Shown in pieces: positions 10,224-64,000 of a DNA stretch of 64,000 bases. The translations under genes were made by a program, and so were the position numbers. Below the pieces are notes generated by a model, which saw only the letters and a program-made list of their open reading frames with translations, ran no database searches and was not told where the DNA came from. The stretch spans positions 3,705,007 to 3,769,006 of the forward strand of contig CM032121.1 in the NCBI GenBank assembly GCA_018894105.1, in the 5' to 3' direction. The stretch's first letter is position 1; every line of letters begins with the position of its first letter. Source of the stretch: Jacaranda mimosifolia (taxonomy: Eukaryota; Streptophyta; Magnoliopsida; Lamiales; Bignoniaceae).

Positions 10224-10230
10224 TATAAAT
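10224..10230 (+). promoter_or_regulatory. TATA box of the second lipid transfer protein gene
   Basis: CACTATAAATTC, about 135 bases upstream of the ATG at 10363, within a pyrimidine- and A-rich leader free of ATG codons in good context. Confidence 0.55.
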
Positions 10231-10362
10231 TCAGCACCATTTCCTCACCCCCAAATTCACCAAAGCCCATCCAAAACTACTCCACAGTCCCCAAAGAGCT
10301 ACCATTTTCCTCTTAATTACTTTAATTCCGCATATCTGCAGCCATCAAAAGTCGGTCCAAAT

Positions 10363-15350: not shown

Positions 15351-15596
15351 TTTTAAGATATTTTTATAAATTAATTAAATAATTATTATATATTAATAAT
15401 ATAATTATTTCTTAAATACTTTCTATATTAATTAAATAATTATTTATATTAATAATTTACTTCTTTGTATTTTTAAATATTATATATAATGTTAAATAAT
15501 TATTATATATTAATAATTAAATTTTATTGAGTTGAGCTGAGCTAGAACTCAAGCTCAAAAAATTTTTCGAACTCGACTTATTTATGCCCCTAGTAT
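15351..15596. mobile_element. AT-rich spacer ending in a truncated hAT-like terminus
   Basis: Ends with GAGCTGAGCTAGAACTCAAG and then ATTTATGCCCCTA, resembling the right end of the hAT-like element at 30565-30918. The left terminus is missing. Confidence 0.4.
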
Positions 15597-19916: not shown

Positions 19917-20873
19917 AGCTGAATAATATCGTTTTCACACATAATTGCCTCAAGTACACGTGCGTACATAAATAAATAAAAAAAATACAATCCTACGAAA
20001 GTAAAATTTATAATAAAATATCAATTCAAATTAAAAGTCCAAAATAACTAAAATATAAGATTCAAATATTAATCCCAACCGATAACAACTCCGCTAGACT
20101 TAGATAGCATTATTTATACTCTAAAGATAAGATGCCTTCAAATAGAAATTTTCCACTCTACCCATCAACTTATTAATTGATATCTCCACATATATTTTGT
20201 GATATTTGTGACACTATTACGTAACCAATATACATTAATAAATTTGCCAATATTCATAAATTCGGATAATTTTAACACTATCACTTGTGCACCTTTGTGG
20301 GCAAATACTAAATTAATGTTAGCACGATATTATAATTAAAATAAAATATGTTGGTTCCAACAACGGATTATATAACAAAATTTTTCCATATATAGTTTAT
20401 TTGATCAATCCTATCAATTACACGTAAGTTGTATTTTTCGTTTATTTAATAGCAAATGTTAAAAATAATTAATCTCTTTATTATACAACTAGTTTGGATC
20501 AAATTAGTCAATGACATAAATCTTTAGACGAGGTAGTAAGTATAATCAAATGTGGATGTATTTCTATTTTCAACAGGAATTACAGAATCTAATTTAATCA
20601 AAAAGTATACTTTATTTTATTTTATTTTTTCATTTCACCAAATTTACAAGCAAATAGAGGTATTCATAAAAATAAAATAAAATGAAAACATGGATATGAT
20701 TCTTCCTAAACTACGAAAAAATTAGATTATTAGAGGCAAATAAATAAAGGCACATTTTCAAAGTAGTCACTCATGATATCCAATTTAAGTTGGCAATTTA
20801 ATCTTAATTGTCCTTATAATGTGTTGTCATATTTTTGGAAGCATATGTACTTAAGAATATACTAGAATAATCT
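19917..20873 (+). repeat. Non-coding repeat unit, copy C (left-truncated)
   Basis: Third copy of the 13.6-17.1 kb unit, starting at GCTGAATAATATCG and lacking the MITE-like left part. It is closer to copy B than to copy A at the right end (GTTGTCATATTTTTGGAAGC). Confidence 0.8.
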
Positions 20874-28325: not shown

Positions 28326-29004
28326 TTCTTAAAAAAGTACTTATCGATAGGCATATTTATTAGTAATAATTATATTTATCAGTACAGTCATATTTATTTT
28401 TTCTATAAATATATTTATTGTATTATTGATTCCTTTAGCTTAGGTCAATCAAATCAAATCACATCAATTAGGAAACGTACTTGGCCCAGTATTTTCTTAG
28501 CTAAATTGAATAGCTCAATCGACCTTGAGCGAACTTTTACCCATATAAATTCTCTATTTTAAATTTAATATTTTATTTTATGAATATATATAATATGTGT
28601 ATTAAATATTTTTTAATAAAAATAATTAATTGAGATTTGAATACACTGATCATATAGACATCATATTCTTGAAAAAGTACTTATCGATAGGCATATTTAT
28701 TAGTGATAATTATATTTATCAATACGGTTATATTTATTTTTTCTATAAATATATTTATTGTATTGTTGATTCCTTTAGCTTAGGTCAATCAAATTAAATC
28801 ACATCAATTTGGAAACGTACTTGGCCCAGTATTTTCTTAGCTAAATTCAATAGCTCAATCGAATTTGAACGAACTTTTACTCATATAAATTCTCTATTTT
28901 AAATTTATATTTTATTTTATGAATATATATAATAGTGTATTAAATATTTTTAATAAAAATAATTAATTGAAATTTAAATACACCGGTCATATAGACATCA
29001 TATT
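28326..29004 (+). repeat. 340-bp tandem duplication (two copies)
   Basis: Copy 1 at 28326-28665 and copy 2 at 28666-29004 start with TTCTT(A/G)AAAAAGTACTTATC and end with ATAGACATCATATT. They differ by scattered substitutions and small indels. The part with TTAATAAAAATAATTAATTGA also recurs, diverged, near 54515-54615. Confidence 0.93.
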
Positions 29005-29396: not shown

Positions 29397-30234
29397 ATGA
29401 AGAGCAAATACTTCCTAACTACCAAAACTTTCACACTATTTTGGCTTGGCACAGTTCTGCCGGCGATCGTTAATCTTCCTCCAATTTCTGGCGGCGGAAA
29501 TGAACCATACACAAGGTGCGGAGTGCTGTTTAACTGCGGGAAACTCACCGGAATTGATTACCCATTCTGGGGCAGCAACCGGCCGGAAGAATGCGGCTAC
29601 CCCGGCCTCAAACTCGGCTGTGAAAATGGCACCGCCGTCATACAAATGAACAACGTTAAGTATCGCGTTCTGGACTTAAATCAGGAAACCCAAGTTCTCA
29701 AGATCACTAGAAATGACCTCTCGCAAAGCCCCTGTCCGCAAGAATTCACAAATACGACTCTGGATTTCGGGCTCTTCGAGTACGCTGCGAGCTACGTAAA
29801 TCTGACGTTCCTTTACGGTTGCCCGCCCCTGGATTTTCCAGTGCCGTACCAATTCGAGTGCCCAGTGAAGGGGATAGCGGAGAGAAATGGGTATGTCGAA
29901 TTTGGGATGCAGATTTCGGCGGGGTTGTGCCATTCCAGCGTGGTGGTTCCGGTTAGTTCTACGTCGTTCGTTAATTTTAATGGTTTGATCAATTTGGAGG
30001 CACTGGTGGGACAGGGGTTTGAGGTGAGGTTTAAGGTTGAAAGTGGTGCGTGCCGTGAGTGCGAGACTTCGGGTGGGAGGTGCGGGTACGATGTTGCGGG
30101 GAAGCAGTTCGCTTGTTTTTGCCCCAATCAATCGGCGGCGGGGGAGTCCAAAACTTGCTTCGCAGCCGTGGTGGCTGCTGCGGGAAATTACGGCCCTCAA
30201 GCGTCGACGGTAACGGTGGCTCCATCAGCATCAG
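29397..30234 (+). CDS. LRK10L-type ectodomain exon, unit 1
   Basis: An 838-base exon (279 residues plus one base) starting MKSKYFLTT with a hydrophobic signal segment. A GUB_WAK_bind-type cysteine domain follows from about residue 40 (RCGVLFNCGKLTGIDYPFWG), then a WAK-associated C-terminal domain ending with C-X2-C and GGRCGYD...CFCP. Several N-X-S/T sites suit an extracellular glycoprotein. The donor CAG/GTATGC follows 30234 in phase 1. If not spliced, the frame adds eight codons and stops at 30260. No transmembrane or kinase exon is seen before unit 2. It is either a first exon spliced to a distant kinase module, a secreted ectodomain, or a gene that lost its kinase. It is the most diverged of the array's units 1-6. 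Confidence 0.85.
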
Positions 30235-30384
30235 GTATGCTCTTACGTTTATTCGTCTGATTAATTCTATTTGTTTTGAGCAAATTACATAGTACGATAT
30301 GGGATTACGAATTACGCATAAATTTTTGTTGTTAATGTAAATTGGGCCGTGTATCAAGCCATTCATCACGCGGGCCTACAAGTC

Positions 30385-31480
30385 AACGTTAGATTCTTAC
30401 ATTTGTTAAGTACATATGTGGAGGTCTTTTTATATGATTTTAGATAATTCCTACTTGTTGAGCTAGTTTTTTGGTTGTATTAGTGTCCTACGTTAGTAAA
30501 ATAAATAAGTTGTGCTTTCTATATATGATTTTGGATAATCCTCACATTTAGAGTTAACTTTTGATAGGGGTGCAATCGAACCGAGTAGAACTAAGTTTGG
30601 ATAAAATTTTCAAACTCAAGCTGTACGAGCCTAAAATTTTAAACTCGAGATCTGCTCGAATTGATAAATGACTTGTAAAAAACTGCAAGTTCGAAGTCGA
30701 ACTTGAAATAAAAAAATTGTAATATAATGTATATATATATATTTATTTATTAATAAAATAAAATTAATATTTAATTATATACTGACTCGCAAGCCTCGAG
30801 CCTACATACAAATGGCTCAAGATCGGCTCGAATTAGAATTCGAGCTCAAGCTCAATTCGAGCTAGCTCCAGCTCGGCTCGTGAAGATCGTGAGTTGGCTT
30901 GACTTGTTTGCATCCATAACTTTTGAGGTTGAATTAGGCTCAGGGTCTATTTCTTAACATAGTATCAGAGCCTCTCATTCTCGATGTTGGGTTATTCAGT
31001 GTTGTTTAGCCACCCATTTCATGTTATTCCACATTCCAGATGTCCATTCTTGAATGATATTGGGTTGCCAAGTGCTGTTGGGTTATCCATTTCATTTTAT
31101 CCATACTCCAAATGTTCATTGTTGGATGTGTGCGGGTGTGTTAGTATCCTACATCAGTAAAATAAATAAGTTGTGGTATTTATATATGGTATTAGGCAAT
31201 TCTCACCCCTTGAGCTAGCTTTTGGGATTGAGTTAGGCCCAATGTCTATCCTTTGATATAGTATTAAAACCACCTAGTCCTGGCGTTGGGTTACCAATAT
31301 TGTTGCTACCCCTTCATGTTACTCCATCGTCTATGTGTCCATTCTTAATTGTGCAAGGAGTTAGATTCTCATATCGATTAATATATGTAGTAATTTTTTA
31401 TATAATTCTAAACAATCCTCACATTTTGAATTAACTTTTGATGTAAGTTAGGCCCAAATCCGTTCTTTAATATTCAATGA
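30385..31480 (+). mobile_element. Degenerate LTR-like repeats with primer-binding-site remnant
   Basis: Three diverged repeats share the ordered words TTAGATTCT, TATATGATTTTAGA, AATCCTCACATTT, GAGCTAGCTTTTGG and GTTAGGCCCAA. The first is followed by TTCTTAACA and TAGTATCAGAGCC (30960-30972), one base from the plant initiator-tRNA-Met primer-binding site that follows an LTR; a more decayed version occurs near 31259. No gag or pol sequence is present, so these look like LTR relics. The hAT-like element at 30565 is nested in the first. Confidence 0.6.
30565..30918. mobile_element. hAT-like MITE nested in an LTR relic
   Basis: 354 bases. The ends TAGGGGTGCAA and TTGCATCCATA are near inverted repeats. 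The 8-base target duplication ACTTTTGA (30557-30564 and 30919-30926) is perfect. The interior is rich in GAGCTCGA-type words. A relative lies at about 50905-51172. Confidence 0.85.
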
Positions 31481-32394
31481 TCATGTGTAGATTAAATGTA
31501 TTTCACTTGATCCAAAAGTTTCACAAATTAGTACCATAGAATACAAGATAAATCTTCTTTCATACTATTTTTCTACAAAACTCAACAAGTGGTTCACTTA
31601 ATTGTTGACAGATGATATGTTGTTCAAGAGATAAAGATTGTTGGATCGTTAAGTTGAATAAAAAAAATTGTCCCAATTAAAAATACACGAATTTTAAAGT
31701 ATTTCAAATTTTTATTTACTAATAGAAAATGTAACAGAATTTTTTTATCCATCCACGTCAAAAACATGCATAACTAAATCTTCTTTAGGGCATACTTTTG
31801 ATGAAATTGCATGGCGCACGGGAAATGCACCTCCACCAAGAGTGTCTTCAATACGATCACATTTCAATAGTGTGAGGTCACTTTAGGCGTCTTTTTTGAC
31901 TCTTTCTTGTATCCCTATGTTCCATAGCAGACCAAGACTGCAAGAGCATTAATATTAGGGCGTTGGGAGTTGGGAATTGGATGATTGTGACCATATGAGG
32001 TGTTGATTAATTTAGAAATATGTAATTAAATTATTTTCCACACATTGTATATAATAATAATTATAATTTATGAACCCATTTAAGATGCATAGCAACGCGA
32101 ATTTTGGAAAAAAGCCTTTGTATTAGGAAAATCATGGCATCAAGGGATGAGCATATTTACACACATAAATTGGACTCATCAAGACCTGTCGAATTTATGT
32201 TACTCGGGCAAAATTTAGACAAAGGCCTCTCCGCCCCCTTTTTTTTTTTTTTTTCCTAGGAATTTTTAGGATTTGTACGAGGTGTTTTCAGCCCGCGTGG
32301 TAATGAACTAAATGGATAAGGCCATCTTAGGAGATGGGCTTATCACCAAGAAGCCATTTCAACATCAAAAAGGCTTATTTGTGTTAATTAGTTA
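31481..32394. other. Intergenic DNA between ectodomain units 1 and 2
   Basis: No gene or intact element recognised. A T/CT run occurs at 32236-32256. Confidence 0.4.
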
Positions 32395-32402
32395 TTCGTA
32401 AA

Positions 32403-33119
32403 TAGGGCAGTTGATGGGTCGGATTTAAATTGGATAAGTCATATTCGAATTCAAATATGATTATTAAAATTCATATCCGAATCTAACCAGATATCCCATA
32501 GAATCCTTATTAGTCAATTCCACATTCGAATCCAATGGATATCCAAAATTCGATTTAAAAAAGAAAATCCTACCCGTTTAATTTTCTTTTTCTCCTTTCC
32601 CCCTTCCTTTTTGAGTTGTATAAAAATATTGTATTTATAAAGTAAATTTACGTCATATTTGTATTTTTCACAACTTTTTATTATATATTAGTCCAAAAAT
32701 TAAATATTTGAATACTAAACCCATATTTCACATTATATTAATGCATAAATGAAATATTATACATTATTATATTTGACATTTTATTAGCATCACTCTTATT
32801 TTTTATGCTAAAGACTTAATATTAATAGTATAATATCGACATTAATATAGATACTAGATCAATTTAATATATAGATTTTATTTTAAAATCTTTATTAGTA
32901 TTATATATAAGAGTATTAATTTAATAAAAAAAAATTAAAATTCGAATTCAGATTTTCACTGGATCAGATTTTTTAATTCCTTATCCGATCCACTTATTTC
33001 GTATAACATAATTTATAATCAAATTTGATTTATCGAATATTTCAATTGGATAAAAATTCTAAAATTTGTATAAAATTCAAATCGAATTCGAATTAAAATC
33101 TGATCGATTGATAGTCTTA
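32403..33119. mobile_element. hAT-like non-autonomous element with target duplication
   Basis: 717 bases. The ends TAGGGCAGTTGATGG and, complemented, TAAGACTATCAATCG are imperfect inverted repeats. The 8-base flanks TTCGTAAA (32395-32402 and 33120-33127) are identical. It aligns by eye over its length with 11839-12514. Confidence 0.82.
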
Positions 33120-34054
33120 TTCGTAAATGTCCAATAAAAATATTTTGATAAATAGATCATGGTTGGGCGTCAAGTAGTCCCTTGAACTTAGCTACACTAT
33201 TGTACCTAATCTCATATGTGGGTAATGTGTCGAAGTCCAAAGGACCCAAAGATAGTGCTTCACAAAATGACAAAATATTGTGCTTAAGGACCTTTTGTAT
33301 TTCCTAGTTAAAATCATGATTTATTGCTTCATTATTATTAATGGCTTTCACATCTTTAGTGAAATCAAAGTTTACTTAATTGACTGCCAACCAAAAACTT
33401 AGGCAACAATAAGTAAGCAACCAACTATTTTCATTTGTTTAATTAGGTTGAAACGCTCAACAAACCACCTCTTTTTAATTAGGCGAAACCGATGTACTAC
33501 TAATATTTTTATTTTATGAATACATGTGAATATAATTTAAAATTAAATATTTATAAAAGTAAATTAAAATATAAGATATGAACCGTCTAAAATGACTCTA
33601 AATATCATTAGCTAAATACTTGCAGCAAATTTTATTTCATAATAAAGGAGTCGAAAAGGGTTCATTTTTCACTTATTGAAGCACATTTTTTCTGAGAATA
33701 AAACTCCCGTTATATGTACTTTTTAACAGAATAATATTTCATAAATTTAAAATAAATTTGAATATCACTAACAAATTAAGTTGGTGAACCACTTTTTTTC
33801 TCTTACCAAGTCATTGTATTTGTATCATATCATGAATGATTTCTTTAACTATAAGAATCTCTCCAGTTTCTCTTCTACCAATGTCTTTGAATTTGAAATA
33901 CCAACTTCTTGAAAAATATGTGTTATTTAGGAGGTGAGTCAATTTTCTTTCGGCCAATAACTTCTTTTATCTTCTTCTGGATTCCCTTCAACCACCTGAT
34001 TATGTCTAAGTATATCTAAGTCTTCTATACCGTCTTCCAACTTATCAATCTTTA

Positions 34055-34847
34055 ATGGATTCCCAAAGCTTTTCACTATACTCCTTTCTTCATTTCCTCT
34101 TCATCACAAAACTCTTGCTTCTGTTTCAAACCCATTATGGATCCAGCAACCCGGAAGAATTGTACCATGCATGTGGCAACAACTTCACCTGTGGCAATAA
34201 GATCACTGGAATCGGGTACCCGTTTCGTGGATCCAGTGATCCTCCCTTTTGTGGCCATCCAAGTCTAGTGCTCACTTGTGATGATCAAACTAATATAACC
34301 ACCATTGATATCACGAACACGACGTATTGGGTGCTGGAAATTTACCAAGCCACACAAACCATGAGGATTGTTAGAGAGGATGTTATGAAGGGAACTTGTC
34401 CACAAGAAATGGGTAACACAACTCTGGACTACTCGATCTTTGACTATGCTTCTACTTACATGAATCTTACATTCTTGTACGGCTGTCCGGCCCTGAACCT
34501 CCCTGGTTTAAGCCTTAGTTCTTGTGGGAATTCTGGTGTTTATGTGTTGCCTGGAACTCCGGGCCCTGGAAATTGTAGTGATAGTGTTGTGGTTCCAGTA
34601 CTTGTGACTGAAAATGGAGCTGGAGGATCCTTGAATTCTACAGGATTGGATCAAGCCCTCCGGCAGGGGTTTGAGATTAGGTGGAAGATCAGTAGCAAAG
34701 CTTGCAGTGATTGCACTGAGTCAAATGGCCGGTGTGGCTATAATTTTGAAACTAATGGAACTACTTGCTTCTGCTCTGATCCGCCATATGTTTCTGATAC
34801 TTGTCCAATGGCTAGTAGGGATTCTCCAGGCAAAACACCATCCTCCG
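34055..34847 (+). CDS. LRK10L-type ectodomain exon, unit 2
   Basis: A 793-base exon (264 residues plus one base). It starts MDSQSFSLYSFLHFLF with a strong signal segment, then a GUB_WAK_bind-type domain (HACGNNFTCGNKITGIGYPF, about residues 35-55) and a WAK-associated domain ending CSDCTESNGRCGYNF and CFCSDPP. It has many N-linked glycosylation sites. The donor CCG/GTACGT follows 34847 in phase 1; readthrough adds 16 residues and stops at 34897. The closest relative is the pseudogene unit 4, identical in exon length. Downstream sequence to 37150 has no kinase. It is expected to face the cell wall, where the family is proposed to sense pectin fragments; the ligand is unknown. Confidence 0.86.
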
Positions 34848-35792
34848 GTACGTATAATGCTTCCTACTTCCTTACAATGAGATGTTTTATTCATTAAACT
34901 AGAGTTATTCTTTGAATTGGAGCCAAACTCTTGGGATTAGAATAAGTTCAACACTAAATTACGAAATCTTGGTAATATTTTCTGTCAAATAAAGGGAGAT
35001 TCTTCTATAAAATTGTCCGTTTATGGTCTGTGCCTATCTCAAAATATCTATTAAGATCAACTGTTTACCATAAGCTAATAGTTATGGCTATTATATATTT
35101 GGTTGTGCAAAGTAAGGTTATGGTGGACTTGATGTGGCTATACCATATAAGTATTACAGGTTGAGTGGTTAGTCTTTAAGTACTGACAATAAATTTAATT
35201 AGGAATCACATTAAAATAAATTAGGAATCTCTTGTAAAATGCTTGCCTGTGATTCAATCGATGAAATAACTTACGTGGTTCAAGAATTGGTGACTTATAG
35301 TATCAGAAATATGTGTGAGCTCTGACCTAGTCCTCCTTGAAATAGCAAATATTCTGTTTTTTCGTTCAACAATTTTTGGACTAGGATAGAAGTTAACACC
35401 AAGTCTTGATTGTAGTTGAGTTTTCTACCAAAACAACTTTGAACTTTGGATCTTATCACAAGTCCTCTATATTTAAACAGATTCTTGTCACATATAAGAA
35501 ATAGCATATGAACAAAGTATTCCTTCAATATATTTTCAGTTTCATGTGCTCGAGTTCCAAGATATGGAATCTGAAATCATTTAGAATTGCACAAATCTGA
35601 AAAAAGTGGCAAAACTGAATAGAAAACTCATCTTCCGAAGTGATTTTATACAAGACAATACGGCCTGCCCACTTTTTCTTATTAATTCTCTTAACCAAGT
35701 TGATATTTTGACAACGCATGCAGGCTGGTTATTTTGACTAACTCCACTCGTTAACATCTATTCAATTTCCTGCTCTTTTTTATGAAGATTAA

Positions 35793-36523
35793 GGGTTCAT
35801 GGATTGGGCAGGATGAGGGCCCACATTCTAGCTCATCCCATGTTTACTTTAAGGGCTTTGGGTCCTGTAACAAAGCACCAGCCCACAACTGTGCAGACTA
35901 TTTGTTGGATTACTTATCCGGCACATGAGGTTTTATAGTTTTATCACAGGAACGGTGCCGCAACTTCAAATAATTTAGAGTTGTGGCATCAATCAAATAA
36001 TTAAAAATATGTTCATATTAAAATATATTTATATTAAAAATAATTAAAAAACATATATATAAGTTATTAATAATATATATATATCTAATGATATTAGATA
36101 TTATATATATATATATATATCTAATGATATTAATAACAAAATGGAAAAACATTACCCTAAATTTTTTATTTATAAGATTTTATTTTTATGTGTAAAGATG
36201 TTGTATTGAAATGGAGAAAAATTAATTTCTTCATGTTTGGAAAAAAAGTAGAAATAGTTAGATGTTGTATTAGAATGGAGAAAATTTAATTTTTTTATAC
36301 TAAATAGAAAAATATTTTAACTAGGGTTACTTTAATTTTTTATATTTTATCATGATATTATAATTCATCAAAGTACAATTCAACATAATAATCCACTTTT
36401 ATCATTCATATCATCCCACAAAATAAACATAATTCAAAAAATATAAAATTATCTTAATCCTACTCTCAAACCCTCATTTTTCATCCTATCACCCCACATC
36501 CCATATCACAAAGTAAAGGACCC
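35793..36523. mobile_element. 731-bp TAA-flanked insertion in block I
   Basis: Flanked by TAA at 35790-35792 and 36524-36526. Blocks II and III carry the uninterrupted site (TTTTATGAGGACTAAAACAA near 41223 and the equivalent near 43225). The ends GGGTTC and GGACCC are weakly inverted. It contains (AT)n and AT-rich internal sequence, possibly a composite. The TAA duplication fits PIF/Harbinger-type insertion. Confidence 0.7.
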
Positions 36524-36590
36524 TAAAACAATTACCAGTAAGGAAAGGCAACCACTATATGAATACGCAATGCCCATTTCATTAGATTAA

Positions 36591-36977
36591 GAGGGTGTTT
36601 GGGTGAGCTTATAAGCTCCTGAAAATATCTTATAAGATGTTTAAGAGCTTATAAGTTGATAAAAAGTATTTGGTAAATTTTTTTAAAAAAGATTTTATAA
36701 GATCCTAAAATAAGATGTTAGGAGCTTATAAGCTCTTTTAAAAAAAATAAGAAGATCTTAACTTATTTTTAAGTTCTTAACAAACTCCTTTATTTTTAAC
36801 TATTTTAATTACAAAATTGTCACTATTAACATCTTTTAAGCGTTAATATTTTATTTTATCCAAATACTTCAAAAACTTATTTTAAAAATAAGATCTAACA
36901 TCTTATAAGCTCCAAAAATATTTTATAAGATGTAGGAGCTTATAAAATATTTAAAATAAATTTAGCCAAACACCCTT
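36591..36977 (+). mobile_element. PIF/Harbinger-like MITE, copy 2
   Basis: 387 bases beginning GAGGGTGTTTGGGTGAGC and ending TTTAGCCAAACACCCTT, an inverted-repeat pair, flanked by TAA at 36588-36590 and 36978-36980. The empty site is preserved in block II (CATTAGACTAAGTCC near 41296) and block III (near 43296), which proves the boundaries. It is similar to 11024-11409 in opposite orientation. Confidence 0.95.
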
Positions 36978-37150
36978 TAAGTCCAATAGAAGCTTCCCTT
37001 TGTTGGAAAAACTTACCACAAAGTGGTAACATTTTCAATTCTGTCTTCTCCTTCCATGTGTCCTGTTAAACACAAGTTCGTCATGCACAACTTCTATAAC
37101 TCTGCCCCCCACCTTTGACTGACAAAGATCAACCTCTTCTTCCTTCCAAA

Positions 37151-37928
37151 ATGGATCCAAAACTCGATCCAAGAATTCTCTCCTTCATCCTTGTAAGCCT
37201 CATATTACTAGGAATCCCGGGTTGTGTCTGTCAAAACGACCAGCAGTATGAAACCTGCCGCCAGCTATTTGAGTGCGGCAGCATCAGGGATATAGGCTAT
37301 CCCTTCTGGGGTGGTAGGCGGCCAGCGTCCTGTGGCTATCCCGGCTTCGGGCTCAACTGCCAAGGCGACGTCCTTCGGCTGAACATCTCATCAACAACCT
37401 ACCGAGTCCTTTCTATTAATAACCAGACTCGAACTCTCAGGGTCGCAAGAGACGACTTATGGAACACCATTTGTCCTAGATTTCTCTTCAACACATCCTT
37501 AGATTTCAGCATCTTCGACTATTCTTCAGCTACTAATGACCAGAACATCACTCTGTACTATGGCTGCCCCCAGAATATTCTGCCCCCTGCTCCCAATCAG
37601 TTCGACTGCAATGTGAACGGAGCAAGCAGCTTGAGTTTCTACTTTACGAGTTCTGTGGTAAATATTACCACATGCAGCGGTAATATTTTTGTTCCGGTGA
37701 ATCAAACTGCGGCCCAGTTTTTGGCGTCTCTGGGGACTACTCCAGTGACAGTTCTTTTACAGTCTGCTCTTAAGAGTGGGTTTTCGATCCAGTGGTCGGC
37801 AGATGATGATGACTGCAATAACTGTGTCCGATCGGGTGGATCGTGTGGGTATAATCAGAATTCGAGGTCTTTTGCTTGCTATTGCACTGATCGAGCTTCT
37901 GACTTCGCGTGCAATAACACTCGAAACG
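37151..37928 (+). CDS. LRK10L-type ectodomain exon, unit 3
   Basis: A 778-base exon (259 residues plus one base). The ATG at 37151 (MDPKLDPRILSFILVSLILL) is chosen because units 5 and 6 start at the same place, although the frame is open further upstream. A signal peptide runs to about GCVCQ; the mature part begins with QQYETCRQLFECGSIRDIGY, a GUB_WAK_bind-type domain, followed by a WAK-associated domain ending DDDCNNCVRSGGSCGYNQN and CYCTD. The donor AACG/GTAAGT after 37928 is consensus and phase 1. The intron's third in-frame codon is TAA, so unspliced RNA would yield a protein ending Asn-Gly-Lys. No kinase follows before the next unit. Confidence 0.87.
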
Positions 37929-39493
37929 GTAAGTAAAACATGGATTCTTCCTTTCTCTGTTTCTGCATTTTTTCTGGCTAATTTACTTTTCTAGGTGGTG
38001 CGGTTAGAGGATGAACTCTCAGAACAACCTACTAACAAATTATTTCTTTCAGAACAACCTACTACCAAATTATTTCTTTCTCTTTTTCCATTTGGCGGCC
38101 TTTCCAGTCCAAACAGTATTTCCCGTGATCCTAATTTTCCAGGACTCTGATTTCCCAGATGACAGCTCTGGATCTTGACAAATATTTGAGTTGGTTTTTA
38201 TAGGGTTAATTCATGATAAGGGTTTGCTTGTTTTGATCTCTAAATCTTATATAAACATCTTAAGCTCTTCCTCAGCAGATTTGAATCCTTAAAACTTCAC
38301 CTGCTTCGCCAATATTAAGGAACAATCTCTTTAAGATCATTGGCTCCAGTTTTCAATGAAAATTGTATCCTGCTTCAGGTTACCTTGGCAAAAAGACGCA
38401 CGCTAAACTCCTCGTTTGCCTTGGTTCTCACAAAGTCTTCCCCCTTGTGCGCTTCGGGCATGGCGGCTTGTCTGGATTTTACGTTCACCTTGTTTTGTTT
38501 TTCCCTTTTCTTTTGGTAAGAAAAATGTCTAATGAAATAGAAAAAAGATCAAGGAGTGACAAGGGTGTTCTCTATCCTTAAAAACATATCGAAAAAGGGG
38601 TAAGTACTTTATATATAGTATATATGTGTGCGTATGTCAAGCCTGAAAGAAAAGTTTCAAATGATAGTAATTTACTTGAAAGATATAGAGAGATCCTTCT
38701 CTGGAAGGATGACTTCAACTGAAGGAGGAAGTTTATTTATAAGTGAGGTTATTATGGAAACATTTCGTAACCGCCTATTGGTTACAAAAATGTCTGGTAA
38801 CCGCCCGTCAGTTACAGAAACGTCTAATAATCACTAAAAATATTTTTAACTGTAAAAAACATCTTATAATAGTCAAACATTTATGTGTAAAACATTAGTT
38901 TTTCAAACAATAATGCACCTTTTTATACATTTACTTTGGATATAATTTGAGCACTTGAAATAATTCTTACTTGAATTATATAAGGTGCATAGCAACAGTT
39001 TTCACGTGATATAATTCTTGAAAATTTCTATATTCATCTTACATTCTTATTAGAAAAACTGACGGGCAGAACTAGGATGTTCCAGTGAGTTCATACTTCA
39101 CTTATTGAAGCACATTTTTCTTGGAATAAAATTCGTCATTATATGTGTTTTTTTTTTTTTTTTTAACAAAACAGTATTTTACAAATTTAAGACGAATTTG
39201 AATATAACTAAAAGATTAAGTTCGTGAACCATTTTTTCTCTTATCAAATCCTTGTATTTATACCATATCATGAATGATTTCTTTAACTATAAGAATCTTT
39301 TTAGTTACTCTTCTACCAATTTCTTTGAATTTGAAATATCAACTTCTTGAAAAATATGTGTTCTTTAGCAGGTGAAGTCAATTTTCTTTCAGCCAATAAC
39401 TTCTTTTATCTTCTTCTGGATTCCCTCCAACCACCTAATTATGTCCGAGTATATCTAAGTCTTCTATGCCATCTTCCAACTTATCAATCTTTA
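37929..39493. other. Unit 3-unit 4 spacer
   Basis: Matches 44269-44780 up to about 38515 and again at 39003-39067. The intervening 38516-39002 is an insertion of unknown type containing a short tandem repeat of GTAACCGCC(C/T) and GGTTAC words. No coding exon recognised. Confidence 0.5.
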
Positions 39494-40286
39494 ATGAATT
39501 CCCAAAACTTTTCACTATACTCCTTTCTTCATCTCCTCTCCACCACAAAACTCTTGCTTCTGTTTCAGAACCATTATGGATCCAGCAACCCGGAAGAATT
39601 TTACCACACCTGCAGCAACAACTTCACCTGTGGCAATAAGATCACTGGAATCACGTACGCTTTTCGTGGATCCAATGATCCGCCCTATTGTGGCCATCCA
39701 AGTCTAGTGTTCACTTGTAATGATCAAACTAATATAACCACCATTGATATCATGAACACGACGTATCGGGTGCTGGAAATTTACCAAGCCACACAAACCA
39801 TGAGGATTGTTAGAGAGGATGTTATGAAGGGAACTTGTCCACAAGAAATGGTTAACGCAACTCTAGACGACTCAACCTTTGACTAAGCTTCTACTTGCTT
39901 GAATCCTACATTCTTGTAGGGCTGTCTGGCCCCGAACCTCCCAGGTTTAAGCCTTCTTTCTTGTGGGAATTCTGGTGTTTATGTGTTGTCTCGAACTCAG
40001 GGCTCTGGCAATTGTACTGCTAGTGTTGTATTTCCAGTACTTGTAACTGGAAATGGATCCGGAGGATCCATGAATACTACAGGATTGGATCAAGCCCTCC
40101 AGCAAGGGTTTGAGATTAGGTGGAAGATTGGTAGCAAAGCTTGCAATGATTGCACTGAGTCAAATGGCCGATGTGGCTATAATTTTGAAGCTAATGGAAC
40201 TACTTGCTTCTGCTCTAGTCTGCCATATGTTTCTGATACTTGTCCAATGACTAGTAGAGACTCTCCAGGCAAAACACCAACCTCCT
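39494..40286 (+). pseudogene. LRK10L-type ectodomain pseudogene, unit 4
   Basis: Copy of unit 2 with the same 793-base length from ATG to donor, so there is no net frameshift. Two in-frame nonsense codons break it: TAA at 39884-39886 (codon 131, a Tyr codon in unit 2) and TAG at 39917-39919 (codon 142, also Tyr in unit 2). The remainder, including CNDCTESNGRCGYNF, stays open. The donor is still GT (CCT/GTATGT) in phase 1. The signal peptide and first domain are intact, so a short secreted fragment of 130 residues could still be made. It appears to be a recent loss. Confidence 0.92.
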
Positions 40287-41476
40287 GTATGTATTAACGC
40301 TTCCTACTGCCTTACAATGAGATGATTTATTCATTAAAGTAGTGTTATTCTTTGAATTGGAGCCGAACTTTTGGGATTAGAATAATTTCAACATTGGATT
40401 TCGAAATCTTGGTGATATTTTCTATCAAATAAAGGGAGATTTTGCTATAAAATTGTCCGTTTGTGGTCCTGTGCCCATATCAAAGTACCTATTGATATCA
40501 ACTGCTTACCATTAGACTAATAGTTATGGCTATTATACATTTGGTAGTGCAAAGAAAGGTTACATTGAACTTGAGGTGACTATATCATATAATCACTATG
40601 GGTTGAGTGGTTAGTTCTTAAGTACTAACAATAAATTTAATTAGGAATCATATAGAGATAGATTAGAAACCTCTGGTAAAATATTCGCACATGACTCAAT
40701 CGATAAAATAACTTATGTAGTTCAGGAATTGACAACTTGTAGTCTTAGAAATATTTGTGAGTTCCGATCTAGTCCTCCTAAAAATAGCAAATATTCTATT
40801 TTTTATTCAACAATTCTTGGACTCAGATAGAAGTTTAACACCAAGTCTTGATTGTAGTTGAGTTTTCTACTAAAACAACTTTTAACTTTGGATCTCATCA
40901 CCAGTCCTCTATATTTAAACAGATTCTTGGCTGCCACATATACGAAATAACATATGAAAAAAGCATTCCTTCGATATATTTTCAGTTTCATGTGCTCGGA
41001 TTCCCAGATGTGGAATCTGAAATCATTTTAGAATTGCATAAATCTGAAAAATGTGACAAAACTGAAAAGAAAACTCATCTTCCGATGTGATTTTATACAA
41101 GACAATACACCCTACCCACATTTTCTTATTAATTCTCTTAACAAAGTAGATATTTTGGTCGCCTGCAGGCTGGTTATTTTGACTAACTCCACTTGTTAAT
41201 TTCTATTCAATTTCCTACTCTTTTTTATGAGGACTAAAACAATTACCAACAGGGAAAGGCAAAACACTGTGTGAACACACAATGCCTATTTCATTAGACT
41301 AAGTCCAACAGAAGCTTCCCTTTGTTGGAAAAACTAACCACAAAGTGGCAACATTTCTAAGTCTCAGTCTTCTCCTTCCACATGTGTCCCGTCAAACACA
41401 AGTTCGTCATACACAAGTTCTATAACTTTTCCCCCCTCCTTTCACTAGCAAAGATCAACCCCCTCCTCCTTCCAAA
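40287..41476. other. Unit 4-unit 5 spacer
   Basis: Homologous to 34848-37150 without the two TAA-flanked insertions, so it shows the ancestral empty sites. No gene recognised. Confidence 0.6.
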
Positions 41477-42254
41477 ATGGGTCCAAAACTCGATCCAAGA
41501 GTTCTGTCCTTCATCCTCGTAAGCCTCATATTACTAGGAATCCCGGGTTGTGTGTGTCAAAACGACCAGCAGTATGAAACCTGCCGCCAGCCATTTGAGT
41601 GCGGCAGCATCAGGGACATAGGCTATCCCTTCTGGGGTGGTAGCCGGCCAGCGTCCTGTGGCTATCCCGGCTTCGGGCTCAACTGCCAAGGCGACGTCCT
41701 TCGGCTTAACATCTCATCAACAACCTACCGAGTCCTTTCTGTTAATAACCGGACTCGAACTCTCAGGGTCGCAAGAGACGACTTATGGAACACCATTTGT
41801 CCTAGATTTCTCTTCAACACATCCTTAGATTTCAGCATCTTCGACTATTCTTCAACTGCTAATGACCAGAACATCACTCTGTACTATGGCTGCCCCCAGA
41901 ACATGCTGCCCCCTGCTCCCAATCAGTTCGACTGCAATGTGAATGGAGCCAACAGTTTGAGTTTCTACTTTACGAGTTCTGTGGTAAATGTTACCACATG
42001 CAGCGATAATATTTTTGTTACGGTGAATCAAAATGCGGCCCGGCTTTTGGCGTCTCCGGTGACTACACCAGTGTCAGTTCTTTTGCAGTCTGCTCTTGAG
42101 AGTGGGTTTTCGATCCAGTGGTCGGCAGATGATGATGACTGCAATAACTGTGTCCGATCAGGTGGATCGTGTGGGTATAACCAGAATTCGAGGTCTTTTG
42201 CTTGTTATTGCACTGATCGAGCTTCTGACTTCACGTGCAATAACACTCGAAACG
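41477..42254 (+). CDS. LRK10L-type ectodomain exon, unit 5
   Basis: A 778-base exon (259 residues plus one base), very close to unit 3. It starts MGPKLDPRVLSFILVSLILL, then the same CRQPFECGSIRDIGYPFWGG domain and a WAK-associated domain ending DDDCNNCVRSGGSCGYNQN. Differences from unit 3 cluster in the second domain, roughly residues 155-205 (for example FVTVNQNAARLLASPVTTPV). The donor AACG/GTAAGT is phase 1, with the same immediate readthrough stop at 42262. No transmembrane or kinase exon follows directly. Confidence 0.87.
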
Positions 42255-42446
42255 GTAAGTAAAACATGGATTCTTCCTTTCTCTGTTTCTTCATTTTTTC
42301 TGGCTAATTTACTTTTCTAGGTGGTGCGGTTAGAGTATGAACTCTCAGAACAACCTACTAACAAATTATTTCTCTCTTTTCCATTTGGCGGCCTTTCCAG
42401 GCCAAACAGTTTTTCCCCTGATCCTAATTCGAATGTGGCACTAACT

Positions 42447-44778
42447 ATAAAATTGTCCGTTTGTGGTCCTGCGTCCGTCTCAAAATATCTATTAAGATCA
42501 ACTGCTTACTATTAGGCTAATAGTTATAGTTATTATCTATTTGGTAGTGCAAAGTAAGGTTATGATGAACTTGAGGTGGTTATACCATGTAAGCACTTTG
42601 GATTGAATGATTAGTCCTTGAGTACTGACAATAAATTTAACTAGGAATCATATAAAGATAGATCTGAAACCTCTAGTAAAATGCTTGCCCGTGACCCAAT
42701 CAATAAAATAACTTACGTAGTTCAAGAATGGGCGACTTGTAGTCTCAGAAATATTTGTGAGCTCTGATCTAGTCCTCCTGGAAATAGCAAATATTCTATT
42801 TTTTCATTCAACAATTCTTGGACTAGGATAGAAGTTAACACTAAGTCTTGATTGTGGTTGAGTTTTCTACCAAAACAACTTTTAACTTTGGATCTCATTA
42901 CCAGTCCTCTATATTTAAACAGATTTTTGGCTGCCACATATAAGAAATAGCATATGAACAAAGCATTCCTTAAATATATTTTTAGTTTCATGTGCTCGGG
43001 TTCCAAGATGTAGAATCTGAAATCATTTTAGAATTGCATAAATCTGAAAAATGTGACAAAACTGAATAGAAAACTCATCTTCCGATGTGATTTTATACAA
43101 GACAATACACCTGCCCACATTTTCTTATTAATTCTCTTAATCAAGTAGATATTTTGATCGCCTGCAGGCTGGTTATTTTGACTAACCCCACTTTTTAATT
43201 TCTATTCAATTTCCTACTTTTTTTTATGAAGACTAAAACAATTACCAATAGGGAAAGGCAAAGCACTTTGTGAATACACAATGCCCATTTCATTAGACTA
43301 AGTCCAACAGAAGCTTCCCTTTGTTGGAAAAATTAACCACAAAGTGGCAACATTTTCAATTCTCAGTCTGGTCCTTCCATATGTGTCCCGTTAAACACAG
43401 GTTCGCCATAAACAACTTCTATAACTCTTCTCCCCTCCTTTCACTAACAAAGATCAACCCCCTCCTCCTTCCAAAATGGATCCAAAACTCGATCCTAGAA
43501 TTCTGTCCTTGATCCTTGTAGGCCTCATATTACTAGGAATCCCGGGTTGTGTGTGTCAAAACGACCAGCAGTATGAAACTTGCCGCCAGCCATTTGAGTG
43601 TGGCAGCATCACGGGAATAGGCTATCCCTTCTGGGGTGGTAGCCGGCCAGCGTCCTGTGGCTATCCCGGCTTCGAGCTCAACTGCCAAGGCAACGTCCTC
43701 CGGCTTAACGTCTCAACACCAACCTACCGAGTCCTTGCTATTGATAACCGGACTCAAACTCTCAGGGTCGCAAGAGACGACTTATCAGATACCATTTGTC
43801 CAAGATTTCTCTTCAACACATCCTTAGATTTCAGCATCTTCGACTATTCTTCGACTGCTAATGACCAGAACATCACTCTGTACTATGGCTGCCCCCTGAA
43901 TCCGCTTGCCACCTTGCCCAATCTGTTCCCCTGCAATGCGAATGGAACAGACAGCTCGAGTTACTACCTGACGAGGGAAGCATCCGGATCCTCTACGTCA
44001 AATGTTACCACATGCCGAAGTAATATTTTTGTTCCGGTGAATCAAACTGCAGCCCAGTTTTTGGCCTCTCTGGGGACTACACCAGCGCCAGTTCTTTTAC
44101 AGTCTGCTTTTGCGAGTGGGTTTTCGATCCAGTGGTCGGCGGATGATAATAACTGCAATAACTGTGTCCGATCGGGTGGATCGTGTGGGTATAATCAGAA
44201 TTCGAGGTCTTTTGCTTGCTATTGCACCGATCGAGTTTATGACTTCACGTGCAATAACACTCGAAACGGTAAGTGAAACATGGATTCTTTCCCTCTCTGT
44301 TTCTTCATTTTTTCTGGCTAATTTCCTTTTCTCGCTGGTGTGCTTAGAGGATGAACTCTCAGAACAACCCATTAACAAATTATTTCCTTCTCTTTTTCCC
44401 CTTTGGCGGCCTTTCCAGGCCAAACAGTTTTTCCCCTTCTGGATTTTGACTAAGATTTCGGTTGGTTCTTTAAGGATTAAACATCTTAATCTCTTCCTCA
44501 GCCGATATGAATCCTTAAATCTCATCTGCTTCGCCAGAATTAAGGAATAATCTCTTGAATATTATCACCATCAAAATTGTATCCTGCTTTAGGTTACCTT
44601 CACAGGATGCACACTGTAGTCCTCATTTGCTTGGTTCTTCCGAGTCGTCTTCCTTACGCGTTTCGGGCGTGGCGGCTTGTCTGAATTTGACTTTCACCTG
44701 CTTTGTTTTTCCCCATGTGTTTACGTGTGATGTAATTCTGGAAAATTCCCATATTCATCTTATTAGAAAAACCAACCG
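42447..44778 (+). repeat. Segmental duplication block III (unit 6)
   Basis: Starts inside sequence that follows units 2 and 4 (ATAAAATTGTCCGTTTGTGG) without a unit-2-type exon, then carries unit 6 and its downstream flank to about 44778. It matches block I up to 38515 and again at 39003-39067. Confidence 0.8.
43476..44268 (+). CDS. LRK10L-type ectodomain exon, unit 6
   Basis: A 793-base exon (264 residues plus one base), third member of the unit 3/5 subfamily. It starts MDPKLDPRILSLILVGLILL, then CRQPFECGSITGIGYPFWGG. It is five residues longer than units 3 and 5 because of an insertion in the second domain near YLTREASGSSTSNVTTC. That region is the most variable among the three copies, while the cysteine frame and the C-terminal NNCVRSGGSCGYNQN are conserved. 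The donor AACG/GTAAGT is phase 1; the readthrough stop TGA ends at 44276. No kinase exon follows before unit 7. Confidence 0.87.
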
Positions 44779-46613
44779 GTGATATTTTATGTATGAAAGT
44801 TTATAGATGTTATAAATTTTATGGTAAACTAAAATACCCAATAAGTATTAGCTCTTCGTTTGCTCCTACTGTATTGATGCTTGGTAGTTTCCACCATCTA
44901 TTTAGCTTTGAGTCTTAAGATTTGACTGCAGACAGTCATCTATAAATACTTTACGCCTAATCATTTCGGAAAATGCTTTCATTAGAAAAAAAAAAAATTA
45001 TAAATTCTTAAAATGTTATAATTTTATAATTTTTATTTAAAAAAATTAAGAATATATAATTTGTTTATGAAATCTTAACAATTTTCTTTTTAAATTATAA
45101 TTATAAAAATTATTATTATTAATATTTTATAAATTTTGAAAATTTTATTTCATTCTATATTTTAAGAATTTATTTTTTAATTAAGTTTTAATATCTTATG
45201 AAATGGAAGAGTTTATAATTTTTTTTAAATAATTTAAATAAATATTTTTTTAATTTTCATAATATTGCGTGTAAGCAAAATTTCATACACAAAAATATTT
45301 AATTTCAATTTAGGGGTAAACGAGCATGAAAATTAAATATCCCACCCGGCCGACATATGTATGAATATTCAACTTAGGAGAGTTGCAAGGGAAGTTTTTC
45401 TTTTATTTTTATTTTTTATAATAGATTTTGTGGAATTGTGGGGCAAAAAAAAAAAAAAGAACTAAATGCTGACCTTCTTCCTCTCCAATAACAATTTTAT
45501 AATCATGACAACAACTATTAGATTTATTTAATATGAAAAGTGGACCATTTTTTCCTAATAATAATACCTTTCATAGTGCTTCAATGTCAAAGTTTGTGGG
45601 CTATGAAGTCCACAAACATACACCACCATCACTGGGCCCCCTTGGAAAATTCTTGTGATTGATTTGGCCACCTAATTAATCACTAAATAAATATAATATT
45701 ATATGTTTATAATTATTTAATTAATTAAATATCAGGTAATAATGTCATCTGTCCTGGTCAAGTTCGAGTCCAAATCATATATTCTAATTAGCATTTTGTT
45801 TTCTATTATACACACTGTTTATAAAATATGAATCATCTAGTAACTAAATTAGTGTACTTTAATGAATTATGATGACAAATAGTTTTGGTTTTTTTATATT
45901 ATTTTCTCTCTTTTTGATTTTTAGCTCTTTTTTTTTTTGAGATTATTTCTTGTTGTAATAGATTGTTTATTTTATTTTAAAATTTTAAAAATGGATAAAA
46001 TTTATTTAAAATTTGTATTATTATATAAAAATAAATAGCATTTTTATTTTAAAATTATAAGAGTTCTAAACCATATATAAATGTGTATAAGTGCACTGTG
46101 CATTAAAGTTGCTAGTATATTTTAGATAAATCCAATGGTTAAAAAATACATCATGAAATAATCAATCATGTTTTTTATTTATATATACATGCCCAATAAA
46201 ATTTATTAGAGTTTGAACATCAAATTTTATATATATATATATATATATGTAATGAATGTTACTGAACTAATTGACTGTTCAACATCCTTCAGCAGTTGAT
46301 TTTGCATATTATACTCTTACATAAGACATGATTTTGCAAAACCTTCACCTAATCCTCTTCTTAATAAATTTAATATATCATTAATCACTCACAATAAATG
46401 ATAATTTCTTATTATACTATTTGATTTATTACATCATAAACTTTTGTCTGTTCCCTCCAATATTAGTTTCCTAGTCAACTAAAGTCTGCTGCACGAGAAA
46501 AAACAAACTATTCAAAATTTAAAAAAAAAAAATTCAACTTTTAGGAATTATGCCTTCAAAATTACAACTAAAAATGGCATCTCACTTCCTCGGTCTCTCC
46601 GCCACCACCACCA
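44779..46613. other. AT-rich spacer upstream of the kinase-bearing unit
   Basis: No gene recognised. It includes poly-A/T stretches, a TA microsatellite at about 46230-46249, and a GTCAAC (reverse W-box core) near 46474. It probably contains the promoter of unit 7. Confidence 0.45.
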
Positions 46614-49459
46614 ATGCCGCCGTCTCCCCTTCTCCTCATCATCCTCGCCGCCGCCCTTCTCACGGCGGCGTATTCCCAGCCCACCACCACTACCACTTAC
46701 CCCAACTGCAACCGCACCTTCTCCTGCGGAACCATCATCAACATCACCTATCCTTTCACCGGCGGCGACCGTCCCGCCCACTGCGGCCTCCCAGATTTCC
46801 GAGTTACCTGCCGGAACGCTACCACAACTGAGTTGACCTCCGGCTCGCTCACCTACCGGGTTCTTCAACTCGATCAAACTCAGAAAACCCTCATTCTCTC
46901 CCGTTCCGACCTTTACAACAACACCTGCCCTTCTGAGTTCCACAACACTACGCTCAATACCTCTCTTTTCTCCTACGATGGTCCTCAAAACGAGGCCCTT
47001 ACTTTGTTCTATGGCTGCAACACAACTGCCAGGACTACCAGACCCTCTAATCTTTTTAGCTGTAATTCTAGTGGTTTGAATTTTAGCGACGCTTATCATT
47101 TGATTGGGCCAGTCCCCCGTGATCCGATCTTGAGTATCATATCTTGTAGCATGAATATTAGCGTCCCACTTTTGAGGGCCGTCGGCAATCGGCTCTCGGC
47201 CTCGCAGATTAGTCTTGGGGAAGCATTGATGCAGGGTTTTAGTGTGAATTATAGCGTGCCTTTTGAGAGATGGTGTCTGGAGTGCAATAGATTGGGTGGG
47301 CAATGTGGGTTTGATTCAGGCTTGGGCCAACCCCTTTGTATTTGTGGCGATAGGCCTTGCCCTTTTAATTTGACACTTCCCCCGGAAGGTAGTTCAAATG
47401 CCACAGGGCCTTTCGAAGGTAATTGGGATTCTTTAGTGCCCTGTTTCTTGGCACTATATTAGTATGTTTGATGATTTAGAATGATAATTTTCTTGGTTGG
47501 CTGTTGTTTCTGAGTATGTTTGATACTTCCTAGGATGGCATTTGAGGTTTTTGGTCGTTTACTAGTTTTATGCTTCGTTAGACAAAAGTTCTACTTATTT
47601 ATGTTATTTTACTATGCCTTTTGTGGTTGAAGTTCTTGCTGAAATGCTCAAAATTTTTCCAGGTCTTTTGTTGGTCTGTAGCTTTGGTATCTAAAGGTTT
47701 TCCTTTTCTGCCCCCTCTAAAATTAATCTGATCAGCTGGATTCTTTCTGGGAACTTCTGGACAGTATTCTGCTTGTGCAATGTATGTAGTATTGTTGGTC
47801 GTAGTTTGAATCTTTGATAGGGCTTAGTTATTCCTATTTCCTGTTTCTGAACCCTGTATATTGTTCTATTCTTGCTTAATTTTTGTTCGCATTGACAGTA
47901 TTTTTCATTTCTTTAATGATTTAAGATGGATGAATTATATATTTACTCTTTATCCAACACTGCCGAGGCATTTACTCTTATCATTGAAACTAACACTCTG
48001 GGATCTCATGGCTGCTGCAGGAAGCAACAACTCGAATTTGGGCAGGAATATTGGTATGATATCATTCTAATGTTATTTAACATTTATACTCCATCAGACA
48101 AATTAGCTTGCAGAATTGAAAAGCTTGATAATCTCTATCTATATACAGGCCTTCCCATAGGGGGTGCAGTTCTTGCTGGTGTAGGCTTGGGATGGTTAAT
48201 ATTCCACTTTAGGCAGAAAAGAAAGCAGCGTCTAGCTGCCCAAATTGTGAGCAAGGACACCATAACCCCTCCTTCAAGCAAACCCCTTTCTACACCTGCT
48301 TCATCTAACTTCACTAAAAGCATCCCTTCATATCCGTCTTCGAACTCTGACTTTGGTAGAGGAAGCACATACTTTGGCGTGCAGGTATTCAACTACAGCG
48401 AACTTGAAGAAGCTACTGATAATTTTGATCCTTCTAGAGTACTAGGAGATGGTGGATTTGGCACAGTATATTATGGTAAGAATATCACCTGGCAATTTGA
48501 CCGGACTATATGAAATATTAGAGCTCCAATAACTTATATTCATTTTTCAAACAGGGGTGCTTCCTGATGGCCGTATTGTTGCTGTGAAACGCTTATATGA
48601 GAACAATTTCAAGCGTGTGGAGCAGTTCATGAATGAACTTGAGATCCTGACTCGACTGACACACGTAAACCTTGTTAAGCTCTATGGATGCACGTCCAAG
48701 AGAAGCCGAGAGTTATTGCTTGTTTACGAATATATACCAAATGGAACGGTAGCTGATCACCTCCACGGAAAACGCGCCAAGTCCGGCTTGCTATCTTGGC
48801 CTGTCCGACTGAATATTGCCATTGAAACGGCCGAAGCATTGACTTACCTCCATAAATCTGATGTCATACATCGAGATGTCAAGACCAACAACATTCTTCT
48901 AGACAACGATTTCCACGTAAAAGTTGCTGATTTTGGACTGTCCAGGTTATTCCCAGACAACGTCACCCATGTCTCGACAGCTCCACAAGGGACTCCCGGC
49001 TATGTCGATCCTGAGTACTACCAGTGCTACCAACTCACGGAAAAGAGCGACGTATATAGCTTTGGAGTAGTTCTGATCGAGCTTATATCGTCTCTCCAGG
49101 CCGTGGACACCAACAGGCACCGGCACGACATCAACTTAGCTAATATGGCTATCAATAAGATTCAAAACCACACATTGCATGAGTTGGTTGATTCAACTCT
49201 CGGCTTTGAGACGAATAGTATTGTGAGAAGGATGGCCACATTAGTTGCGGAATTAGCTTTCCGATGTTTGCAGCAGGAGAGGGATATGAGGCCCTCGATG
49301 GAAGAAGTGCTGGAGGCTTTGAGAGGGATTAAGAATGATGATTTGAATGCTCATAAGCTTGAAATTGTCGACATATTGGTGGATGATGATAACGAGCCGC
49401 TGAAGAATAGCGTTGCTCCACCTTCGCCAGATTCAGCAACACCTAATTCTAGTGCGTGA
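46614..49459 (+). CDS. LRK10L1: LRK10L1-type receptor-like protein kinase (unit 7, complete)
   Basis: Exons 46614-47418, 48021-48053 (33-base mini-exon), 48149-48475 and 48555-49459 give 689 residues. A signal peptide is followed by a GUB_WAK_bind domain ([20 protein letters not shown], about residues 32-51) and a WAK-associated domain ([13 protein letters not shown]). A transmembrane helix lies at about 282-300. The kinase has [16 protein letters not shown] (Lys400), HRDVK (Asp496), DFG (Asp514) and [11 protein letters not shown]: a complete RD kinase of the At1g18390 type. All exon junctions are phase 1. The Arabidopsis counterpart is recalled to act in abscisic acid and drought responses and to use alternative promoters and mini-exons. 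A second in-frame donor at 47388 would shorten the linker by 10 residues. This is the only transmembrane-kinase module in the array. Confidence 0.92.
48021..48053 (+). other. 33-base mini-exon encoding the juxtamembrane linker
   Basis: Bounded by CTGCAG and GTATGA, with a CTAAC branch-like motif upstream (near 47990). It encodes [10 protein letters not shown] between the ectodomain and the transmembrane helix and is phase 1 on both sides, so skipping keeps the frame. Confidence 0.8.
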
Positions 49460-63837: not shown

Positions 63838-64000
63838 ATGAACCCAAGACTGAATCCAACACTTCTCTCCTTAGTCCTCACAAACCTTATCTTGCTAAAA
63901 ACCCCAAGTATTGTCTGTCAAAACGAGCAGCAGTATGAAACTTGCCGCCAGCCATTTGAGTGCGGCAGCATCACGGGAATAGGCTATCCCTTCTGGGGTG
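63838..64000 (+). CDS. LRK10L-type ectodomain exon, unit 8 (cut by window end)
   Basis: Starts MNPRLNPTLLSLVLTNLILL, a signal peptide, and reaches ETCRQPFECGSITGIGYPFW in the first domain before the window ends. Its mature start is nearly identical to unit 6, while the signal peptide and upstream flank differ. It lies beyond the kinase exons of unit 7 and beyond the hydrolase gene, so the receptor array continues to the right. Whether a second kinase module follows cannot be seen. Confidence 0.88.
   Translation, partial: MNPRLNPTLLSLVLTNLILLKTPSIVCQNEQQYETCRQPFECGSITGIGYPFWG

Follow-up and report, generated by a model that had tools for sequence, protein, structure and literature searches.

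Introduction

The Arabidopsis receptor kinase LRK10L3 has an alternative first exon, and a 2026 paper (PMC13136898) reports peptides for both isoforms, which differ in the extracellular part and are identical in the transmembrane and kinase parts; its authors suggest that diverse signals are recognized with a common signaling core. For LRK10L1 (At1g18390), a passage of PMC12479429 that cites Shin et al. 2015 gives two transcripts, LRK10L1.1 and LRK10L1.2, from two promoters, and a passage of PMC10337256 describes two start sites. LRK10 genes also figure in disease resistance, as in strawberry anthracnose according to an excerpt of PMC11899574. With LRK10L3 and LRK10L1 published, the principle of alternative first exons is thus already known at two units. 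In the openly licensed literature, as far as listings and some passages of it reach, we found no description of larger arrays of such units or of their conservation. Here we analyze a 64-kb stretch of the Jacaranda mimosifolia genome (contig CM032121.1), in what follows the window, in which tandem variable ectodomain exons precede one constant transmembrane-kinase module, and which very probably harbors one receptor-kinase gene of the LRK10L1 type (GUB_WAK_bind/WAK_assoc) with an array of alternative first exons. An initial annotation of the window had proposed such a shared kinase and had named the alternative promoters of LRK10L1 as small-scale precedent, which the literature bears out.

Plant receptor kinases are commonly pictured as one gene with one ectodomain. 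In the present locus several ectodomain classes appear to draw on a single kinase, so that different cell-wall sensors could probably be mounted on one signaling engine, and the same arrangement is annotated in many other flowering plants. If exon sharing of this kind is ignored, LRK10L gene-family counts, single-exon knock-outs and ligand screens could be misread; the array also allows a direct test of whether the choice of ectodomain varies with tissue or stress while signaling output stays fixed. The locus is an enlarged case of a known type, the alternative first exons of an LRK10L/WAK-like receptor. Where LRK10L3 has two isoforms, the window has six intact units and one pseudogene with recent block duplication, known from genomic sequence alone. 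LRK10L1 resembles the proposed gene of the window in that its transcripts begin at alternative sites of one LRK10L gene, and differs from it in having two promoters. In the vertebrate clustered protocadherins, too, one constant part follows a row of variable ectodomain exons that have starts of their own, and the arrays expand by tandem duplication; promoter choice there is stochastic and involves chromatin looping. The window differs from them in that the constant part is a kinase and the units are far fewer, and the resemblance implies no claim of homology.

Results and Discussion

The units of the array and the exons that they could share are as follows, with lengths of units counted from ATG to donor and P numbers denoting proteins of relatives.

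29397..30234, plus strand: U1, ectodomain first exon of class A; 838 bases, hydrophobic signal-like start (by eye), GUB_WAK_bind and WAK_assoc, phase-1 donor
34055..34847, plus strand: U2, ectodomain first exon of class B; 793 bases, phase-1 donor, Pfam domains; class-mates P0015 (Olea), P0067 (Handroanthus) and P0103 (Solanum)
37151..37928, plus strand: U3, ectodomain first exon of class C; 778 bases, phase-1 donor, Pfam domains, class weakly supported by the tree
39494..40286, plus strand: U4, pseudogene copy of U2; 793 bases, 82% protein identity to U2, two in-frame stops
41477..42254, plus strand: U5, ectodomain first exon of class C; 778 bases, 92% to U3
43476..44268, plus strand: U6, ectodomain first exon of class C; 793 bases, 80-81% to U3/U5, 5 codons longer
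46614..47418, plus strand: U7, kinase-proximal ectodomain first exon of class D; 805 bases, Pfam domains, in-frame join, class supported by the tree
48021..48053, plus strand: mini-exon of 33 bases encoding a juxtamembrane linker, frame kept; peptide conserved in Sesamum P0008 and Paulownia P0001
48149..48475, plus strand: transmembrane/juxtamembrane exon with the kinase start, shared; in-frame joins, matches in relatives
48555..49459, plus strand: kinase exon up to the stop, shared; Pkinase match, motifs by eye

The 64-kb window thus holds six intact ectodomain exons (U1, U2, U3, U5, U6 and U7) and one pseudogene, U4, which has in-frame stops at codons 131 and 142 and T for G just before its GT. 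All six intact units are followed by GT and leave remainder 1, that is, they end in a phase-1 donor, and from each of them the frame is open to the common stop at 49459 via 48149-48475 and 48555-49459, with or without the mini-exon. As the units are homologous copies, their common phase is no independent evidence. GUB_WAK_bind (PF13947) and WAK_assoc (PF14380) exceed the curated Pfam cut-offs in all six, as does Pkinase in the last exon, and the kinase translation contains, by eye, VAVK, HRD and DFG, which we take to be the motifs of an active kinase. The transmembrane segment of the shared exon was identified by eye and has no Pfam match. The resulting layout, GUB_WAK_bind and WAK_assoc followed by a transmembrane segment and then a kinase, is that of LRK10L/WAK-like proteins, a name that the whole-protein relatives carry. 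A tblastn search with the window's own kinase at E ≤ 1 found no second kinase copy or kinase remnant in the 64 kb, the spaces between units included, and no solved structure similar to U7 was found by sequence at E ≤ 1. The initial annotation had drawn this picture before, with six ectodomain exons upstream of U7, one of them a pseudogene (in the present count five intact units plus U4), unit lengths that all leave remainder 1, an in-frame join to the mini-exon at 48021 or the transmembrane exon at 48149, no kinase of their own for units 1-6, and a variable-ectodomain, constant-kinase geometry, and on each of these points the present analysis agrees with it. A second phase-1 GT site lies inside U7 at 47388; the sequence of Sesamum P0008 there fits the 47418 donor instead.

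In the mechanism that we propose, each intact unit would supply an ATG of its own together with a signal-like start and the whole ectodomain, and would presumably be transcribed from its own upstream promoter. Its phase-1 donor would be spliced past the downstream units to the mini-exon or the transmembrane exon, and the resulting mRNAs would encode receptors that differ in the extracellular domain and are alike in the membrane and kinase part. We infer that promoter choice brings every one of the six units into use in this species, where they would sense different wall-derived or other ligands. The title of Shin et al. 2015 reportedly names mini-exons affecting localization, to be compared with the 33-base mini-exon here.

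A kinase shared among ectodomains predicts different ectodomains on one kinase in relatives. Proteins were collected by searches covering rosids and asterids, among them one whose query was limited to the transmembrane/juxtamembrane region and the beginning of the kinase (best 120 of 1071 matches) and one with an oak relative (best 120 of 2665 matches). The pool numbers 266 proteins, 214 of which match the kinase, and 168 have both a usable ectodomain and a kinase. Clustering the kinases of these 168 at 99.5% identity gave 128 clusters, 28 of them with more than one member, and 27 of the 28 same-kinase sets hold two to four ectodomains (<70% identical), the closest pairs between ectodomains being 28-45% identical; the remaining set, a Primulina pair, has a single ectodomain. 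The fraction is an overestimate, since near-identical proteins are merged in the database. The best match lies outside the own set (congeners included) for 62 of the 66 ectodomains of the 27 sets, the four exceptions belonging to two pairs, one in Corylus (99% identical) and one in Ziziphus (44% identical). In Lamiales, ectodomains of the U1, U2, U3 and U7 classes are each joined to a kinase 84-87% identical to that of the window: the U1 class in Paulownia P0001, Perilla P0022 and Erythranthe P0035, the U2 class in Olea P0015, the U3 class in Handroanthus P0004, and the U7 class in Paulownia P0002 and Sesamum P0008. U1 itself is 75% identical to the ectodomain of P0001 over 282 aligned positions, and the kinase of P0001 shares 87% identity with that of the window. 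Three short contigs from a source named 'lgn' (2368, 2551 and 2807 bases) contain intron-free frames of 701, 699 and 721 amino acids, consisting of a class C, C and A ectodomain, respectively, plus the kinase, and their size suggests that they are transcript assemblies.

The mini-exon peptide is conserved as well, the window's version being identical in Sesamum P0008, and the linker after every ectodomain is the same or nearly so among the isoforms of one set (sets read by eye). Multi-isoform LRK10L genes (Olea, Cornus, Coffea, Quercus, Corylus, Vitis, Ricinus and others) resemble the window in their related ectodomain classes, a shared linker and one kinase per set; they differ from it in that they are known from annotation only and have, among the listed matches, at most four distinct ectodomains per same-kinase set (Corylus). 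Going by names that are often incomplete, 23 of the 27 sets consist of numbered isoforms from a single contig or of models under one locus tag, and four lack isoform naming: Nicotiana P0112/P0117 (two contigs), Juglans regia P0127/P0128 (two tags), Manihot and Hevea (names from different sources). The Juglans regia pair, with 100% identical kinases under different locus tags, would suit an explanation in which gene conversion keeps separate tandem copies of the kinase identical in the relatives and sharing is only apparent. We regard this as most improbable, as the names in 23 of the 27 sets point to isoforms of a single gene or to a common locus tag, and it is inapplicable to the window, where one kinase stands behind seven units. 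Comparison with relatives, together with the published precedent, makes kinase sharing among ectodomains well supported, and the proposal of the initial annotation is upheld to that degree.

Trees were built of 53 relatives, hand-picked from the 168 and representing 20 genera, with the rows of some genera on different contigs. To these the ectodomain tree adds the six window units (59 rows) and the kinase tree the window kinase (54 rows); both are quick trees with support from the Shimodaira-Hasegawa-like approximate likelihood ratio test (SH-aLRT) only. Rosids and asterids occur together in the class-D group of U7 (14 rows, SH-aLRT 100), in a joint class-A/B group of U1 and U2 (24 rows, 99) and in the weaker class-C group of U3, U5 and U6 (18 rows, 87), outside of which three class-C rows fall. 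Inside the A/B group, the U1 subgroup (6 rows, 98) and the U2 subgroup (12 rows, 97) hold asterids alone and the rosids form a third subgroup, so U1 and U2 are separate classes only in asterids. On the ectodomain tree, 51 changes of genus label are required against a shuffled mean of 49.3, and on the kinase tree 22 against a shuffled mean of 45.4, the minimum possible being 20; ectodomains group by class across rosids and asterids, and kinases group by genus. Together with the 62 of 66 best matches outside the own set, the trees indicate that the variable parts are old and that the constant part is of one kind per set. By the quick tree the ectodomain classes appear older than the rosid-asterid split.

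Unit order was assessed in the 12 of 266 proteins longer than 790 residues, eight of which have at least two ectodomain matches to hand-picked class representatives. All eight fused gene models, from asterids and rosids, keep the order of the window: A ahead of B, either of these ahead of C or D, and C ahead of D. Such long fused proteins are probably chains of adjacent exons made by gene finders, and for that reason the models would reflect genomic order.

Two pairs of blocks within the array document its growth.

33660..35792, plus strand: duplicated block with U2; copy at 39089-41237 with U4, 88% identical
40445..42419, plus strand: duplicated block with U5; copy at 42445-44437 with U6, 89% identical

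The 88% and 89% matches show tandem copying of U2-U3-type blocks, and to judge from the sequence recent tandem block duplication gave U5, U6 and the dead U4. Protein identity among U3, U5 and U6 is 80-92%, and their comparisons give a synonymous divergence (dS) of 0.08-0.16 and a ratio of nonsynonymous to synonymous divergence (dN/dS) of 0.43-0.69. Strong purifying selection was considered as proof of function and rejected: these ratios are only moderately low, and the copies are too young for an open frame by itself to settle the matter. Three intact copies are a suggestive, not a decisive, sign of function. Differences of U6 from U3/U5 cluster in alignment columns 138-182 (about 43887-44021), some 40 codons that separate the two Pfam domains, with high values for silent as well as replacement sites. 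A patchwork produced by conversion or exchange fits this pattern better than simple selection, as if the rest of the unit had been homogenized or columns 138-182 exchanged.

That U4 is dead and that dN/dS among U3, U5 and U6 is fairly high could also mean that U1-U6 are relics of complete receptor genes that lost their kinases, U7 alone being in use. Against this, no kinase remnant was found between the units at E ≤ 1, U1, U2, U3, U5 and U6 are all intact, ectodomains of the U1, U2 and U3 classes are joined to a kinase in several relatives, and the joint U1/U2 group and class C each contain rosids and asterids. Relics are, in our estimation, very unlikely.

A number of observations weigh against an array of functional alternative first exons. 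The dN/dS of U3, U5 and U6 is just moderately under the 0.79 of U2 against dead U4, and a simulated neutral copy of U3 has a probability of 0.27 of staying stop-free at 5% divergence and of 0.06 at 10%; a single open frame therefore proves little. The introns implied by joins to 48021 are long for a plant (U1 17.8, U2 13.2, U3 10.1, U5 5.8, U6 3.8 and U7 0.6 kb), which makes use of the farthest units less likely. TATA[AT]A occurs in the 250 bases upstream of the units before U3 only. CTATAAC lies at -57 in U3, U5 and U6 and is absent from the 120 bases before U1, U2 and U7, which means little since the three are recent copies. On the side of the relatives, the isoforms are database annotations, and 100 of the 128 kinase clusters are single proteins with no mate among the listed matches, which speaks neither for nor against sharing. 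Paulownia, Perilla and Handroanthus, with two rows each, are split in the kinase tree, and as their kinases differ these pairs show classes on paralogous loci and not sharing. Finally, many database models are stand-alone ectodomains: of 56 such models, 43 end 0-62 residues past the aligned donor, nine run further and four end earlier.

These stand-alone models bear on a further explanation, namely that U1-U6 are separate secreted proteins, the exon being read into the intron to an early stop with polyadenylation there, giving soluble wall-binding proteins or decoys. Left unspliced, all six intact units do stop 6-48 bases past the donor, in agreement with the 43 relatives, but a stop shortly into an intron is expected by chance, and the stand-alone models resemble what gene finders would produce by reading through a first exon. 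Each intact unit, moreover, retains a GT donor in the sole phase that fits the kinase, and relatives fuse the same ectodomain classes to a kinase. We give secretion as the only fate of these units little credence. The same stops and the same 43 models are also compatible with a dual output, in which one set of first exons yields kinase-bound receptors when spliced and soluble ectodomains by intronic polyadenylation. Some stand-alone forms are found on short 'lgn' contigs, for example P0217 (10 member sequences, 2147 bases), but such contigs could be genomic DNA rather than RNA. Dual output overlaps with the alternative-first-exon array as a special case of it; we think it rather unlikely as the explanation of the locus, with stand-alone secreted forms being plausible as an additional output.

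Setting out from the alternative-first-exon array, a more far-reaching model can be formulated, that of a protocadherin-like plant locus. Here competing promoters would choose one of six ectodomains per cell or condition for the single kinase, intronic polyadenylation of these exons would release matching soluble decoys, and block duplication with partial gene conversion would continually renew the sensors, the stretch that separates the two ectodomain domains being hypervariable. We put this model forward tentatively and consider it speculative.

Other Features of the Window

Beyond the kinase, the window ends in a further unit.

63838..64000, plus strand: start of a class-C ectodomain unit, 54 codons, cut by the window end; 69-76% to U3/U5/U6, 14 kb past the kinase

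This start, which the initial annotation does not mention, probably belongs to a second locus, either another array or a receptor gene. Upstream of U1, at a distance of 0.4-1 kb, lies a direct tandem duplication of 340 bases (28326-28667 and 28666-29004, 94% identical). Dispersed repeats, probably transposon remnants, connect the array spacers with the left part of the window: 11854-12508 matches 32438-33111 (77%, direct) and 11019-11414 matches 36982-36586 (85%, inverted). At 14446-20868 a stretch of about 1 kb is present in three diverged copies that are 79-87% identical. Two open frames on the plus strand have domain matches, one of 267 codons at 24438-25241 to Peptidase_C26 and GATase class I, and one of 208 codons at 10030-10656, the last part of which matches PF00234 and PF14368, plant lipid-transfer/protease-inhibitor families.

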